Positions 1,413 through 15,083 of a stretch of 30,375 nucleotides of DNA are shown here, piece by piece. Below the pieces are notes generated by a model. It saw only the letters and a program-made list of their open reading frames with translations. It did no database searches and had not been told where the DNA came from. Position numbers and translations under genes: made by a program. Source of the stretch: a virus; IMG/VR virus record IMGVR_UViG_3300048838_000549, positions 1 to 30,375 of that record. One strand, 5' to 3'. Position 1 is the first letter of the stretch, and the number at the start of each line of letters is the position of its first letter.

Positions 1413-1578
1413 AAAATACCCTTAAATAGCATATAAAGCTCTATAAACTGTAAAAATAGCCTTATTACTACAAACATTATATATAATTTAAGTACTACTA
1501 GAGCCTTTTTACCTATAGGTAGAGCTAAAAATTCTATATATAGGGCTTTCCCTTTCACACATAGCATATACTAGTCCT

Positions 1579-1653
1579 TTCTCAGTATGAGTCATCTCAA
1601 AATGAGACGTATCAGATTAAGACGTATCATTATGAGGCGTTCATTTTGGTACG
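1579..1653. repeat. Tandem array of five 15-bp dyads upstream of a sigma-54-like element
   Basis: Four units abut exactly, starting at 1579, 1594, 1609 and 1624 (TTCTCAGTATGAGTC, ATCTCAAAATGAGAC, GTATCAGATTAAGAC, GTATCATTATGAGGC). A fifth, degenerate unit follows at 1638. The strict 15-bp period resembles iterons or a cooperative operator. The array ends 10 bp before the sigma-54-like element at 1663. Confidence 0.8.
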
Positions 1654-1662
1654 AGTAGGCCG

Positions 1663-1680
1663 TTGGCACGGAAATTGCAT
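1663..1680 (+). promoter_or_regulatory. Sigma-54-like promoter, full consensus match
   Basis: TTGGCACGGAAATTGCAT matches the RpoN consensus TGGCACG-N4-TTGCA at every conserved base, with GG 1665-1666 and GC 1677-1678 ten nt apart. Transcription would begin near 1690. It lies between two tandem dyad arrays, reminiscent of activator sites near sigma-54 promoters. The usual activator position is about 100 bp upstream; here the sites are closer and on both sides. Confidence 0.65.
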
Positions 1681-1700
1681 ATATAGCAAATAGCGTACCA

Positions 1701-1744
1701 GTCCCAAATAGAGACGTATCAGATTGAAAATACCGCATTGAGAC
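1701..1744. repeat. Second tandem dyad array
   Basis: Three consecutive 15-bp units start at 1701 (GTCCCAAATAGAGAC), 1716 (GTATCAGATTGAAAA) and 1730 (ATACCGCATTGAGAC). They are more degenerate than the upstream array but keep the period. The array lies just downstream of the presumed sigma-54 start near 1690, so protein bound here could also block transcription. Confidence 0.65.
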
Positions 1745-1870
1745 GTAGCTGCAAATACCGTGCTTGTATTGGAATGATACGTAATTCGAATTGTAAGTCT
1801 ATAAGTATATGAAACTACTAGTGATTCTCAATTTGATATGTGAATATTGAGTGGTGTCTAACTGACGTAT

Positions 1871-1998
1871 ATTGACTATAAGTTATACAAGCTTGTAACC
1901 TATTGATTCTATTAAGTAATATGTAATTGTTCTATATATGAGACTCCCCTTGTATATAAGTTCAACGTACCATCATAAGATTGACAGTCTAAGTACTT
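1871..1998. repeat. Intergenic shared-word module, copy A
   Basis: Three words occur here and again at 3364-3443 in a different order: ATTGACTATAAGTTATAC (1871-1888), GTATATAAGTTC (1952-1963) and CTAAGTACTT (1989-1998). Both modules end shortly before a sigma-54-like element (2010 and 3485). No gene is predicted across them. They are probably protein-binding or promoter parts. Confidence 0.5.
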
Positions 1999-2009
1999 GA
2001 ATTTACGTT

Positions 2010-2027
2010 GTGGCACCTAAACTGCAT
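2010..2027 (+). promoter_or_regulatory. Sigma-54-like promoter upstream of the 2056 gene
   Basis: GTGGCACCTAAACTGCAT has GG 2012-2013 and GC 2024-2025 with the required 10-nt gap, and an intact GGCAC block. The TTGC block is degenerate (CTGC). The predicted start near 2037 leaves a short leader containing GCGAGG before the ATG at 2056, a sensible promoter-gene geometry. Confidence 0.5.
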
Positions 2028-2055
2028 TAGTTACTTGTATGAAAGCGAGGCATAT

Positions 2056-2286
2056 ATGAATCAGATACCTAGAGGCATATATAAGCACTACAAGAATACA
2101 GATACTCATACTATAACGTTTTATACTGAGACTAAGACCTATAGCTTATCTTGTGATTCACTCTTAGGTTTATTAAGTTTAGTTGATTCGTTCTTTAGCC
2201 CTAGACCTGATATGAGTCTAAGTGAATACACTTTAGCTCTAGAGTCAAGTTTAGACAACACTGTAAAACTTAATAAGGTGGCTTAA
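2056..2286 (+). CDS. Small hypothetical protein
   Basis: This 76-residue protein starts MNQIPRGIYKHYKNTDTHTI. A central beta-type stretch (ITFYTETKTYSLSC) is followed by an amphipathic C-terminal half (SLLGLLSLVDSFF and SEYTLALESSLDNTVKL). No family is recognised. The ATG at 2056 is chosen because GCGAGG precedes it. The longer in-frame TTG at 2008 would sit inside the sigma-54-like element, upstream of its expected transcript start. It is the first gene of a short plus-strand operon with 2288 and 2511. Confidence 0.6.
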   Translation: MNQIPRGIYKHYKNTDTHTITFYTETKTYSLSCDSLLGLLSLVDSFFSPRPDMSLSEYTLALESSLDNTVKLNKVA

Positions 2287-2287
2287 T

Positions 2288-2470
2288 ATGGTACAGATTA
2301 AAGAGTCTCAAGTTGAGGCGGTTATTACAGTGTGCCCGTATTGCATGGACGAAGTGTCTCATAACAAGACAGGCTGTTGTGGGGAGAGTTCGTGTCACTT
2401 TGAGACGGCTGTGGTATATGATGGCATGGCATACCTTGAAAATGAGATTGATATAATTGAAGGACAATAA
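2288..2470 (+). CDS. Small cysteine-rich, probably zinc-binding protein
   Basis: This 60-residue protein has a CPYC knuckle (Cys16, Cys19) followed by Cys30, Cys31, Cys36 and His37, consistent with one small zinc-binding module. The C-terminus is acidic (YLENEIDIIEGQ). The ATG follows AAGGTGG, 6 nt away, and the previous gene's stop is 2 nt upstream, so co-translation is likely. It carries three dyad copies in its coding sequence (2305, 2356, 2392). Nucleic-acid or protein binding is possible; no family is recognised. Confidence 0.65.
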   Translation: MVQIKESQVEAVITVCPYCMDEVSHNKTGCCGESSCHFETAVVYDGMAYLENEIDIIEGQ

Positions 2471-2510
2471 ACTGTCTCATAACGAGACAATACACTATAA
2501 CGGGGGTTAT

Positions 2511-3239
2511 ATGTTTAGGAACTACGCTAAAGATGAAATAGAGGCGCTTCAAATTGAGACAGGCGTCAAGTCTGTACTCACTCAGAATGCTAAAATGAAG
2601 CGTTCGTCTCAAAATGGGATTCACTTGTATAACTTCGGTATTCCAGCCTTTAGGTCTCAAACTGGTCTTGCCACTTGTCCCAATGCGAAACACTGCGTTA
2701 AAGGCTGTTATGCTAAAAGCGGCTCTTATCTGTACTCGGGCACCGTAGCAGCCTATGAGAATCGTCTCAGTTTGACACGAACCAAAGGTTTTGAACAAGT
2801 AATAACGTACCATATTGATAAACTCCTCAAAAAACACCCCACTGGTCTCATATTGATACGGGTGCATGATAGTGGGGACTTTTACAGTGAAACATATCAT
2901 AGAGCATGGTATTTAATAGCGTCTCAGTATGAGACTAATCCTAGAGTCAAGTTTTATGCTTATACCAAAATGGTACAGCAGTCTTTAGGCTTATCGGCTT
3001 TAGCGCCTAAAAACTTTAGGTTAATTTTTAGTTATGGCGGAAGTGAAGATTCTCATATTGATACAGAGAAGCATTACCATAGCCGAGTGTTTGAAAGTCT
3101 AGAGGCATTGAGTCAAGCCGGATATATAGATGGTACTCACGACGATACTTGCGCTGCCATTGGTCCAGACGTGAAAATAGGTCTAGTATATCATGGTATG
3201 CGAAGCTTTAAAAACACAACATGGGATAAGGTCTCATAA
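2511..3239 (+). CDS. Gene product 88 (gp88) family protein
   Basis: This 242-residue protein resembles the phage gp88 family named after mycobacteriophage L5 gp88. Recognised elements are NGIHLYNFGIPAF (residues about 35-47), a cysteine cluster TCPNAKHCVKGCYA with C56-x5-C62-x3-C66, AYENR, RVHDSGDFYS (117-126) and KFYAYTK (147-153). A further cysteine follows near residue 219. The family's biochemical function is not established to my knowledge; the cysteines suggest a metal or Fe-S site. GGGGG lies 4 nt upstream of the ATG at 2511, preferred over the in-frame ATG at 2457. At least nine dyad copies lie inside the gene, and its TAA stop is the spacer of the dyad at 3231. Confidence 0.82.
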   Translation: MFRNYAKDEIEALQIETGVKSVLTQNAKMKRSSQNGIHLYNFGIPAFRSQTGLATCPNAKHCVKGCYAKSGSYLYSGTVAAYENRLSLTRTKGFEQVITYHIDKLLKKHPTGLILIRVHDSGDFYSETYHRAWYLIASQYETNPRVKFYAYTKMVQQSLGLSALAPKNFRLIFSYGGSEDSHIDTEKHYHSRVFESLEALSQAGYIDGTHDDTCAAIGPDVKIGLVYHGMRSFKNTTWDKVS

Positions 3240-3255
3240 TGATATAACCCCCAAG

Positions 3256-3302
3256 CTGGCACGGTAGTTGCTTATGCAATTGCTGTGCCAGTCTCTTTAT
3301 TA
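3256..3302 (+). terminator. Long hairpin after the gp88-family gene; overlaps a sigma-54 consensus
   Basis: Bases 3256-3271 pair with 3276-3291 through 16 consecutive RNA base pairs (three of them G-U) around a TTAT loop. A moderately T-rich tract (TCTCTTTATTA) follows. The full pairing only holds with wobble pairs, which points to selection on RNA, so an intrinsic terminator is the simplest reading. The left arm also reads CTGGCACGGTAGTTGCTT, a full RpoN consensus (GG 3258-3259, GC 3270-3271). The right arm read on the minus strand is another (CTGGCACAGCAATTGCAT). Confidence 0.6.
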
Positions 3303-3363
3303 TACATAATTCGAAATATGGCTTATATTGAGACATTCGAGGACTGTCTAAGGTATGACTCTC

Positions 3364-3443
3364 GTATATAAGTTCGCCACCTGCTAAGTACTTATAACTA
3401 TTAAGCTTATTAGAACTAAGGCTATATTGACTATAAGTTGTAC
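3364..3443. repeat. Intergenic shared-word module, copy B
   Basis: It contains GTATATAAGTTC (3364-3375), CTAAGTACTT (3384-3393) and ATTGACTATAAGTTGTAC (3426-3443), the same three words as at 1871-1998. Stretch 3303-3484 holds no gene that I can support; dyads at 3320 and 3447 are its other features. Confidence 0.5.
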
Positions 3444-3484
3444 GTCTTCTCTATTCGAGACTTGAGTAATTACAACTACTTAGG

Positions 3485-3502
3485 TTGGCACGAGGACTGC
3501 AA
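3485..3502 (+). promoter_or_regulatory. Sigma-54-like promoter
   Basis: TTGGCACGAGGACTGCAA has GG 3487-3488 and GC 3499-3500 ten nt apart and an intact TTGGCACG block; the distal block is CTGC rather than TTGC. Transcription would start near 3512, just before the short frame at 3514 and 139 nt before the gene at 3651. Confidence 0.5.
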
Positions 3503-3513
3503 TACTAGTATAT

Positions 3514-3609
3514 ATGAAGACGTTAACTGTTACAACTAAGAAGATAAGTGATAAGCAAATAAAACAACTAGAGTGTTTAGGCTTTAAAGTTAAAGTGATT
3601 TTAAAATAA
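3514..3609 (+). CDS. Possible 31-residue basic peptide
   Basis: The frame MKTLTVTTKKISDKQIKQLE continues CLGFKVKVILK and stops at 3607-3609. It has a plausible strand-helix-strand pattern (a small double-psi or ribbon-like fold is conceivable) and 10 lysines. No Shine-Dalgarno is present and the ATG lies at the predicted sigma-54 transcript start, so it would have to be leaderless. Treat as tentative. Confidence 0.35.
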   Translation: MKTLTVTTKKISDKQIKQLECLGFKVKVILK

Positions 3610-3650
3610 ACCGTCTCTATATGAGACATAACTATACCTAGGGGGTATAT

Positions 3651-3902
3651 ATGAAGCATTCAGTAAAACAAACAGTATTCAACGCATTGAATACAGAACT
3701 AGAATCTGGTCGCATGACCTTGACTCAGTTACTCAATCCCAATTGGGGACAGTGTCAAGACTTTGGTCTATTCATTACTGGACTAGTGTCTTATATTGGC
3801 ACTAATTATGGTACTGTCAGACCTGAAACTGTAAACGTATATATTAGAAGCTTTAAAGCTAAGGAACGACGCAAGTTGTCTCAAGCTAAAACAACTATCT
3901 AA
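3651..3902 (+). CDS. Small hypothetical protein
   Basis: This 83-residue, mostly helical protein starts MKHSVKQTVFNALNTELESG and has a basic C-terminus (SFKAKERRKLSQAKTTI). It contains the Trp/Cys segment LLNPNWGQCQDFGLF. It has a very strong Shine-Dalgarno (AGGGGG, 5 nt before the ATG). A near-perfect dyad (3613-3627) lies in its leader and another near 3788 inside it. No family is recognised. The basic tail could contact nucleic acid. Confidence 0.62.
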   Translation: MKHSVKQTVFNALNTELESGRMTLTQLLNPNWGQCQDFGLFITGLVSYIGTNYGTVRPETVNVYIRSFKAKERRKLSQAKTTI

Positions 3903-4183
3903 AAGTTAGACATTGTATCATACTGAGCCGTACCTCTAAGGGGGGTACGGTAATCAGTTTACCTCCCCTAACCCCTCCAGTTACCAAAAGAGTATCGGTT
4001 TGGAATTTTAAAAAAAATTAAAAATCAAACTTACGTATTATAATATTATACTCTTAAAGGTATATTTTAACAGTTTAAAGCTCTAACTAGTTAATAAGAC
4101 TGGCTTATGTATTTACGTATATTAACTAATATAAGGGGTACTACCATTAAAACGGACTCTACAACAAAGTGACATTCTAAATT
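3903..4183. other. Convergent intergenic region
   Basis: About 280 bp lie between converging genes. It holds the last dyad (3915-3929), the hairpin at 3928-3950, C-rich runs (CCTCCCCTAACCCCTCC), then a very AT-rich stretch with A8 and T-rich runs that may end transcription from both sides. No gene seen. Confidence 0.5.
3928..3950 (+). terminator. Possible hairpin terminator
   Basis: CCGTACCTC (3928-3936) pairs with GGGGTACGG (3942-3950) with one G-U pair, around loop TAAGG. It sits 26 nt after the stop at 3902, the right place for a terminator, but no T-run follows. It may be a terminator needing other factors, or an operator. Confidence 0.35.
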
Positions 4184-4423
4184 TTAAAAAATTCTTAAAA
4201 AGGAACTAGTGGTGATTACATCAGGTATAGGGTCTGGACTGGGCCAATATAACGTAATTTCAGCCTTAGTAGCCAATCTACAAGTAAACATACCATCTTC
4301 TAAATACCAACGGTTATAATTACCATTATCCCATAAAACTTCAAACCACCTGTTAGTAACTCGGGATATCTTACCCATACTAACGTCAGTGACTATAATG
4401 TCGCCTTTATTAAAAGGGACCAT
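4184..4423 (-). CDS. GD-motif small protein, SH3-like, with altered tail
   Basis: This 79-residue protein opens with MVPFNKGDIIVTDVSMGKIS and continues to RWFEVLWDNGNYNRWYLED, a KOW/SH3-like strand pattern. The C-terminus reads KAEITLYWPSP followed by 13 or more residues, instead of the family tail xxTLYG. Removing one T from the TATATTGG stretch would restore ITLYGPVQTLYLM and a stop, so the gene may carry a one-base insertion. Its ATG overlaps the end of the previous gene (GGTCCC after TLYGPF) by 14 nt, in the tATGGt context of that gene's Tyr-Gly codons. It is the last gene of the minus cassette. Confidence 0.66.
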   Translation of the reverse strand: MVPFNKGDIIVTDVSMGKISRVTNRWFEVLWDNGNYNRWYLEDGMFTCRLATKAEITLYWPSPDPIPDVITTSSFLRIF

Positions 4424-8469: not shown

Positions 8470-8731
8470 ACAATTTAGGGGTTTTTTGCAAGACGGCTTC
8501 GTAACTGACGCATTATTACGTCCGTATTTTACACCTGGAAATCTCTATCTAGTTAAAATTACTACATATTTTGATGAATATGGTAACGAGACCTCCATAG
8601 AAATGATAATAGTTGACGAATTGACCGGATTCTCTAAACTAATAGAATTGCCTCCGTATTACATAAATGACCTGTTTATCGAGGCTAAATCTCCAGCAGC
8701 CTCCGTCTTATTTGCAAAACCGTCAAAATAA
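8444..8731 (+). CDS. LFA-tail small protein
   Basis: This 95-residue protein starts MVPVKANSKQFRGFLQDGFV. A beta region (NLYLVKITTYFDEYGNE) and a second strand pair follow, and it ends SPAASVLFAKPSK, a tail variant with Ala in place of Gly. TAAGGTG lies 4 nt before the ATG. No gene overlaps its end, yet the tail is kept, which argues that the tail is a protein-level feature. Confidence 0.68.
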   Translation: MVPVKANSKQFRGFLQDGFVTDALLRPYFTPGNLYLVKITTYFDEYGNETSIEMIIVDELTGFSKLIELPPYYINDLFIEAKSPAASVLFAKPSK

Positions 8732-8744
8732 TTGACACTACACG

Positions 8745-8768
8745 TTGACTTAGCATACACATTATAAT
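8745..8768 (+). promoter_or_regulatory. Conserved short-spaced promoter-like element, copy 1
   Basis: TTGACT (8745-8750) and TATAAT (8763-8768) are separated by 12 bp and share 15 of the intervening bases with the element at 9802-9824 (GACTTAG-C/T-ATACACA). A second TTGACA lies at 8732-8737, also wrongly spaced for sigma-70. The position, just before the isolated gene at 8788, supports a promoter role. Confidence 0.55.
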
Positions 8769-8787
8769 AGGGCATGAGGAGTCACCT

Positions 8788-9015
8788 ATGGACCTACGTT
8801 TTATAGAATGGCAACAGTCCATTTACATTGTGATAGGTATAGGTCAAGATACTAAATTTGACCCGCCAGACGTGTATTATTGCATCCTGCTAGAAAATTC
8901 TCTCATAGCTGACGTCTTAAGGGCTATAGACACTGTTATTATACCTTTTTCAGAAGCTATTGAAATTACTGATAAAAATAGAGTAAAGGCTATAAATATT
9001 TTATTTGGCAGGTAA
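8788..9015 (+). CDS. LFG-tail small protein
   Basis: This 75-residue protein starts MDLRFIEWQQSIYIVIGIGQ. It is beta-rich (VYYCILLEN, DTVIIPFSEAIEI) and ends VKAINILFGR. It has its own promoter-like element and GAGGAG 6 nt before the ATG, so a new transcription unit (8788-9795) starts here. Function unknown; member of the tail family. Confidence 0.7.
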   Translation: MDLRFIEWQQSIYIVIGIGQDTKFDPPDVYYCILLENSLIADVLRAIDTVIIPFSEAIEITDKNRVKAINILFGR

Positions 9016-14399: not shown

Positions 14400-15083
14400 A
14401 TGAAGAAGTACAAAGTAGATGATACTGTTTTTGAAAATATTGATAATGAAGAAAAAGCTTATTGGCTAGGTTTTATACTAGCTGATGGAAGTATTCAAAT
14501 TAGAAAAAATACTGGGCAACATTTATTAAAAATATCATTAGCAATTAAGGACAAAGAACATCTAATAAAATTTAAAACTTTCATAAAAACTCAAATACCA
14601 ATAAAAGAATATTTAGTTGGAAATGGTTTAAATGACAATAAATCTAAATCTTGTGAAATTATTATTTATAATAAAAAAATAGTACAAGATTTGATTAAAC
14701 TTGGCATAGGACCTAAAAAGAGTTTTAATGTAAAAATACCTACTATAAAAAAATCCCTTCTTTCCCACCTTATTAGAGGTATATGGGATGGAGACGGTTC
14801 AGTATTATTTAGAGCTAGAAATAGTAAATATCCAGACTACTATCGTCCAGAAGTTCAAATTTGTGGTAATAGTTTTGTTTTGGGTAAAATAAATGATATT
14901 TTTAAAGATAAACTTTTTCTGTCTAAGTCTAAATTATCTCCAATAGGAAATATATTTGTATTTAGAAAGTCTTCCAGTTCTGCTCAAAAGATTGCAAAAT
15001 ATTTATATAAAGATAGTACTATACATCTTAATAGAAAATATGAAAAAGCAATTCAGTGTATAAATTGGATAGCAAAAAGGTAG
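14400..15083 (+). CDS. LAGLIDADG homing endonuclease
   Basis: This 227-residue protein has two LAGLIDADG motifs: YWLGFILADGS (residues 21-31) and LIRGIWDGDGS (124-134), each with the catalytic Asp. A single chain with two motifs acts as a monomer that cuts a long asymmetric site. The gene is rich in Lys, Ile and Asn and more AT-rich than the virion genes around it, consistent with recent arrival. It ends in TAG at 15081-15083, immediately followed in the same frame by portal coding sequence. The flanks (73 bp before, about 10 bp after) are too short to hold a group I intron core, so it is read as free-standing. Confidence 0.9.
   Translation: MKKYKVDDTVFENIDNEEKAYWLGFILADGSIQIRKNTGQHLLKISLAIKDKEHLIKFKTFIKTQIPIKEYLVGNGLNDNKSKSCEIIIYNKKIVQDLIKLGIGPKKSFNVKIPTIKKSLLSHLIRGIWDGDGSVLFRARNSKYPDYYRPEVQICGNSFVLGKINDIFKDKLFLSKSKLSPIGNIFVFRKSSSSAQKIAKYLYKDSTIHLNRKYEKAIQCINWIAKR

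Follow-up and report, generated by a model that had tools for sequence, protein, structure and literature searches.

A dyad array with sigma-54-type elements around the gp88 gene of a large phage and its relatives

The window studied here, i.e., the whole stretch of 30,375 nucleotides from IMG/VR virus record IMGVR_UViG_3300048838_000549, carries between positions 1579 and 3929 about 38 copies of a 15-bp dyad with the consensus GTCTCA-NNN-TGAGAC, spread through and between the genes around a member of the gp88 family. This array is confirmed as real, far above chance and unique in its genome, and dyad blocks surround gp88 in at least nine other phages belonging to two separate groups (20 to more than 100 copies each). 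The same region holds sigma-54-type promoter elements, which had been overlooked by the original prediction from which this analysis started. Judged from its sequence, the block looks like an undescribed phage control region, and the reading that we favour, tentatively and at less than even odds, is that the array may be an enhancer-like platform where a host regulator, once recruited, would drive transcription of the sigma-54 type in the gp88 region.

The dyad array of the window

Dyads were defined as 6-3-6 sites and scored with an iterated palindromic matrix, which recovered the copies mentioned above (39 sites near there at a score of at least 6.5). With a score of at least 10, 31 of them lie in the 2.4 kb from 1551 to 3950 against 5 in the other 28 kb of the window, in agreement with the density first reported, and 0.28 are expected from dinucleotide shuffles. 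IMG/VR contig 3300048837_000378 (G001; 104,793 bp; offset 3354) contains the window in identical form; of its 26 sites with at most two mismatches, 21 fall inside the array, and a genome-wide count found no second array. Spacing is irregular (14–181 bp), not regular at about 75 bp as had been supposed, and contiguous 15-bp tandem copies occur at 1579–1638 and 1701–1730, as they also do in three relatives (L093, L095 and L108). No clear signal of helical phasing was found. Most copies are imperfect, and only one of the 14 perfect 6-3-6 dyads of the window belongs to the family.

The codon-preserving shuffle that the original prediction had itself named as its refuting test left that prediction standing. 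When synonymous codons of gp88 were permuted 2000 times and scanned with a matrix trained on intergenic copies only, the 11 dyads of the window gene compared with a shuffle mean of 3.5, and no shuffle reached as many; for the homologues of two relatives (L093 and L095), the values were 14 against 5.3 and 9 against 2.8 (0 of 2000 in each case). For the small genes of the window, taken singly, the excess is not clearly significant. Copies had also been said to occupy all three codon positions of gp88: at a score of at least 8, the coding part has them in two frames, and the only copy in the third frame is the one that, as predicted, spans the stop codon (3231–3245). In most arrays, the share of dyads that fall in coding DNA is close to the coding fraction of the region.

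Among 134 sites from four phages, the two half-sites vary independently, instead of being paired between arms as previously thought, and only two are perfect palindromes. This argues against a hairpin: the dyad is probably bound as double-stranded DNA by a dimeric protein, and selection would act on how many sites there are. A hairpin, RNA or single-stranded-DNA element was rejected on the same independence, there being no compensatory changes between arms and no Rfam match, and type IIS restriction sites (GTCTC) were likewise dismissed, many half-sites of the dyad being of other sequence, such as GTATC.

Dyad arrays and sigma-54-type elements in other phages

The relatives are metagenomic contigs of uncertain completeness, found through their terminase or their gp88, so that arrays lacking these genes are missed. 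Three of those retrieved by terminase have an array in the same place, i.e., G008 (L093; terminase 86% identical), G010 (L095; 73%) and G013 (L108; 71%), as does G009 (L094), where it is cut by the contig end. The second group came from a gp88-alignment search followed by a scan with the matrix derived from the first group; it includes large arrays (L203/G019, L204/G020, L205/G021 and L213/G024) and smaller ones (L272/G026, L208 and L225). Genome-wide, G019 has 116 dyads, G020 104, G021 85, G024 125 and G026 25, each time concentrated in one gp88 block. Altogether, about 12 distinct dyad-bearing phages were counted among 224 gp88 loci, some of these loci being overlapping stretches of a single phage. 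For about seven of ten records (G008, G009, G020, G021 and others), the array lies near a contig end, which may be a genome end or an assembly break.

Apart from gp88, the two groups have different genes beneath their blocks. Among these are genes for DUF932 and for an MPTase-PolyVal protein, with a PhaR-type DNA-binding protein in or near some blocks. Relatives of the PHB/PHA accumulation regulator DNA-binding domain lie at 8581–8883 in G021, 67921–68208 in G024, 48000–48278 in G019 and 53328–53660 in G020 (the domain being Pfam-confirmed for two of these proteins); their closest plasmid matches are mostly alphaproteobacterial, a weak hint at the host. Other apparent arrays near gp88 (L220, L223, L261, L267 and L229) proved to be simple tandem repeats. 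At 4101–9671 of L218, a dispersed TCAAC-N7-GTTGA dyad near a gp88 gene is possibly an independent array of other specificity.

The gp88 genes of G001 and G010, whose proteins are 53% identical, have ten dyads each, two of which are in common in the gp88 alignment, and more positions are in common between G001 and G008. According to these comparisons, the array is conserved as density, not as positions. It has also left an imprint on proteins: SQNE-like peptides, i.e., the dyad read in one frame, reach 1.43 per 1000 amino acids in array open reading frames (ORFs) against 0.09 elsewhere (about 16-fold), in a count of all ORFs of at least 60 amino acids, some of them spurious. The codon shuffles, the conservation of the block in other phages, the turnover of positions at constant density and this imprint together support the original suggestion that selection acts on the DNA itself, not on the protein.

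The array regions are also rich in TGGCA-N7-TGCA elements, which fit the −24/−12 consensus of sigma-54 promoters. In the window, elements resembling TGGCAC-N5-TTGCW start at 1664, 2011, 3257 and 3486 on the plus strand and at 1685 and 3275 on the minus strand. When the pattern TGGC[AC]-Nk-TGC[AT] was counted over 12 gp88 regions, 113 matches had k = 7, and none of the other values tried (0–19) gave more than 10. Once aligned, the elements have Y at position 6 and R at position 7, and their TGC is preceded by T and followed by A or T, in accordance with the published sigma-54 consensus (PMC12316311). At the sequence level, the match to the −24/−12 consensus with fixed spacing is thus shown, and we infer that RpoN would use these elements. 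Throughout the 224 loci, every dyad-array locus has the element above its own spacing control, and only eight other loci are rich in elements without dyads.

The elements favour intergenic DNA in five phages (G001, G010, G002, G011 and G018) and lie overall 10–50 bp ahead of starts with a ribosome site more often than random positions do. Tandem pairs 27–30 bp apart also occur, and at 4192–4295 of L204 four tandem elements with a 29–30-bp period are followed by a GC-rich hairpin. In the dyad-free G002 (L009, 23446–26778), four forward elements have a TCCGGA-containing site 88–107 bp upstream, a usual distance for activator sites, which at sigma-54 promoters tend to stand about 80–150 bp upstream. 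Such TCCGGA sites are nearly absent elsewhere in G002; G008 and G010 have them too, next to dyads.

Layout of the array region and of the phage

In the window, the dyads come from the iterated palindromic matrix scan and have no strand assigned. The left end (1579–1638) consists of four contiguous 15-bp copies, starting at 1579, 1594, 1609 and 1624. Next to it, the plus-strand sigma-54-type element TGGCACGGAAATTGCA (1664–1679) forms a convergent pair with a minus-strand element having one mismatch (1685–1701), and two further contiguous dyads, starting at 1701 and 1716, cover 1701–1730. Dyads GTATTGGAATGATAC (1766–1780), TTCTCAATTTGATAT (1825–1839) and TTCTATATATGAGAC (1930–1944) follow, then the weak dyad GTACCATCATAAGAT (1967–1981), the plus-strand element TGGCACCTAAACTGCA (2011–2026) and the weak dyad GTATGAAAGCGAGGC (2037–2051). 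This element stands about 30 bp ahead of a small plus-strand ORF of 76 amino acids (2056–2286) without a family match, over which are found GTTTTATACTGAGAC (2118–2132), the weak GAGTCAAGTTTAGAC (2242–2256) and, at its end, GGCTTAATATGGTAC (2280–2294). A second small plus-strand ORF, of 60 amino acids (2288–2470) and with a homologue in G010, carries GTCTCAAGTTGAGGC (2305–2319), GTCTCATAACAAGAC (2356–2370) and GTGTCACTTTGAGAC (2392–2406), and GTCTCATAACGAGAC (2474–2488) separates it from gp88.

Inside the gp88-family gene (PF17338; 2511–3239, plus strand) lie GCTTCAAATTGAGAC (2546–2560), GTCTCAAAATGGGAT (2606–2620), whose position is common to the gp88 of three phages, GTCTCAAACTGGTCT (2654–2668), GTCCCAATGCGAAAC (2677–2691), GTCTCAGTTTGACAC (2764–2778), GTACCATATTGATAA (2807–2821), GTCTCATATTGATAC (2845–2859), the perfect and top-scoring dyad GTCTCAGTATGAGAC (2921–2935), ATACCAAAATGGTAC (2962–2976) and TTCTCATATTGATAC (3050–3064), while the copy across the stop codon reads GTCTCATAATGATAT. 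Downstream of the gene, the plus-strand element TGGCACGGTAGTTGCT (3257–3272) is faced by a minus-strand element (3275–3291), a pair that also scans as an intrinsic terminator 3' of gp88. There follow the dyads GTCTCTTTATTATAC (3291–3305), GGCTTATATTGAGAC (3320–3334) and TTCTCTATTCGAGAC (3447–3461), and the plus-strand element TGGCACGAGGACTGCA (3486–3501) ahead of a plus-strand ORF of 31 amino acids (3514–3609), the sequence of which is conserved in three array phages (that of the window, G008 and G009). Beyond GTCTCTATATGAGAC (3613–3627), a plus-strand ORF of 83 amino acids (3651–3902), with an all-helical model and homologues in other lineage A arrays, is overlaid by ATCCCAATTGGGGAC (3736–3750), GTCTTATATTGGCAC (3788–3802), GTCTCAAGCTAAAAC (3878–3892) and, at its end, the weak ATCTAAAAGTTAGAC (3897–3911); GTATCATACTGAGCC (3915–3929) is the right end of the array.

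G001 encodes a family A DNA polymerase, a helicase-primase, a class II ribonucleotide reductase and an ATP-dependent ligase, as well as a terminase, a major head protein and a tail sheath; scans of this contig returned no tRNA and no Rfam family. Genes in the left-hand part are encoded on the minus strand, and from about 10.8 kb onwards the plus strand encodes the structural genes. Flanked by groups of minus-strand genes is a short plus-strand unit, which the array overlies. A LAGLIDADG homing endonuclease gene (window 14400–15083) lies between the terminase and head genes. The search of species genomes with the terminase gave one remote match, in a Poribacteria metagenome-assembled genome (30% identity), and no host, while the named phage collection had no nucleotide match.

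Possible functions and known systems

Partition, origin, stoperator and decoy functions had all been proposed for the dyads, and none of the four is established. In the enhancer reading, about 35 cis-acting sites for a single dimeric protein, densely arrayed, would overlie the gp88 region regardless of gene boundaries and would belong to a regulatory island that also carries the −24/−12 elements. A regulator, probably host-encoded since no candidate is common to the dyad-bearing phages, would load at many dyads and, once loaded, drive the sigma-54-type promoters of the island. Since enhancers work from afar and in both directions, individual sites could drift while their number is kept, as is observed. 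This reading accounts for the strict co-occurrence of dyads and elements, for position independence and for the fixed neighbourhood.

Several observations weigh against it. The 35 to 125 sites far exceed the few known at sigma-54 promoters, and an enhancer explains neither this number, nor the abutting positions, nor the coding elements of the second group, whose frequency in coding DNA is about that expected and which are in this respect not promoter-like. Moreover, dyads have no upstream preference: their favoured centres are near −12, −38 and +40 from the element start, i.e., abutting the elements, so that a bound protein could also block the polymerase. Convergent element pairs with starts 18–21 bp apart, seen in seven phages at one or two per region and often flanked by dyads (1664–1700 and 3257–3290 in the window), would be odd for promoters. 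Finally, no sigma-54 activator domain was detected in 15 phage records, which means that an unseen host protein must be assumed.

As to what reads the dyad, the proteins common to both groups and absent from dyad-free relatives are homing-endonuclease-like ones and scattered proteins of no assigned function, and no shared DNA-binding regulator is evident among the proteins exclusive to dyad-bearing phages. Protein scans recognized no phage repressor, small uncharacterized proteins remaining. The likelier reader is a host protein that benefits the phage when bound; it is the more economical choice because the two groups share the dyad without sharing a candidate reader and because the phages keep renewing their sites. 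A fast-evolving phage protein is possible, e.g., the 83-residue helical one of lineage A arrays, for which the best structural matches are DNA-binding domains, none of them significant.

A broader version of the enhancer reading strikes us as doubtful, namely that unrelated large phages converged on, or exchanged, a super-enhancer-like block in which tens to more than 100 activator sites through genes, together with sigma-54-type promoters, would put one host regulator in control of a region, early or accessory.

Somewhat less probable is a silencer, in which a phage repressor would coat the region and, until its release, stop transcription of the gp88 unit at both initiation and elongation. 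Dyads do extend across entire transcription units and adjoin promoter-like elements on either side, the stoperators of Cluster A phages are a precedent for many sites read by one repressor (PMC6550527), and the helical protein just mentioned could be the binder. Yet the dyads are symmetric and confined to one block, the two groups have no repressor in common, the genes for DNA polymerase, ribonucleotide reductase and ligase suggest a lytic phage, and a silencer belonging to the host would favour the loss of sites, not their upkeep.

We consider it unlikely that the array is a decoy titrating a host regulator during infection. Multiplied by the phage copy number, its sites would exceed many regulators, and a density kept while positions drift fits such a role; however, a decoy could lie anywhere, whereas in each phage the sites form one gp88 block with sigma-54-type elements. 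A centromere-like, compaction or anchoring site, at which a spreading or bridging protein would gather the phage genome, appears more improbable still. One compact cluster per genome and a placement indifferent to coding would suit it, but ParB_N (PF02195) is absent from 13 phage records (ParA and other partition types were not searched), no lysogeny or plasmid maintenance genes were noted, and the tie to sigma-54-type elements would be left unexplained. Least probable of all is a replication origin with initiator boxes: the block of the window phage does lie at a coding-strand switch, near the minimum of cumulative skew of the first 20 kb, but the switch alone explains the skew, and known origins do not resemble a block of up to about 100 copies spread over some 10 kb with strong turnover of positions.

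The second motif, being of a known type, provides a testable lead to the function of the dyads beside it. If the sigma-54 link is true, a phage region would be run by the enhancer-dependent transcription system of the host, and the SQNE-like peptides would exemplify a DNA-binding demand shaping protein sequence.

Among known systems, sigma-54 promoters of the NtrC type have a few upstream enhancer sites acting at a distance; these are dyads of similar size near −24/−12 elements, whereas here dozens stand on both sides and inside genes. In parS–ParB systems, clustered short dyads are bound by a dimer, and the chromosomal parS half-site GTTTCA, with a 2-bp spacer, resembles the half-site GTNTCA of our arrays, which differ by their 3-bp spacer, their far larger number of copies and the lack of ParB_N noted above. 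Cluster A stoperators (L5, Bxb1) are likewise many copies of a short repressor site, mostly not at promoters (PMC6550527), but they lack symmetry, follow the direction of transcription, occur throughout the genome and have a known repressor, while the present dyads are symmetric and form one block per genome, which argues against the L5-type stoperators first envisaged. The nearest precedent is the 17-bp dyad TGTTCGG-NNN-CCGAACA of the Cluster O mycobacteriophages (Corndog), with more than 30 copies per genome, about one third of them in coding regions; its function is unknown, a dimeric binding protein was proposed, and its authors held a role in transcription initiation unlikely, most sites being far from promoters (PMC4351075). 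It is alike in copy number, in its 3-bp spacer and in lying partly in genes, but has invariant arms of another sequence and length and sites distributed genome-wide, in contrast to degenerate arms, one gp88 block and sigma-54-type elements alongside. Multi-copy dyads inside phage genes had thus already been reported, without a function, in Corndog; what is new here is a compact array, found in at least ten phages of two groups, with sigma-54-type elements at its side.

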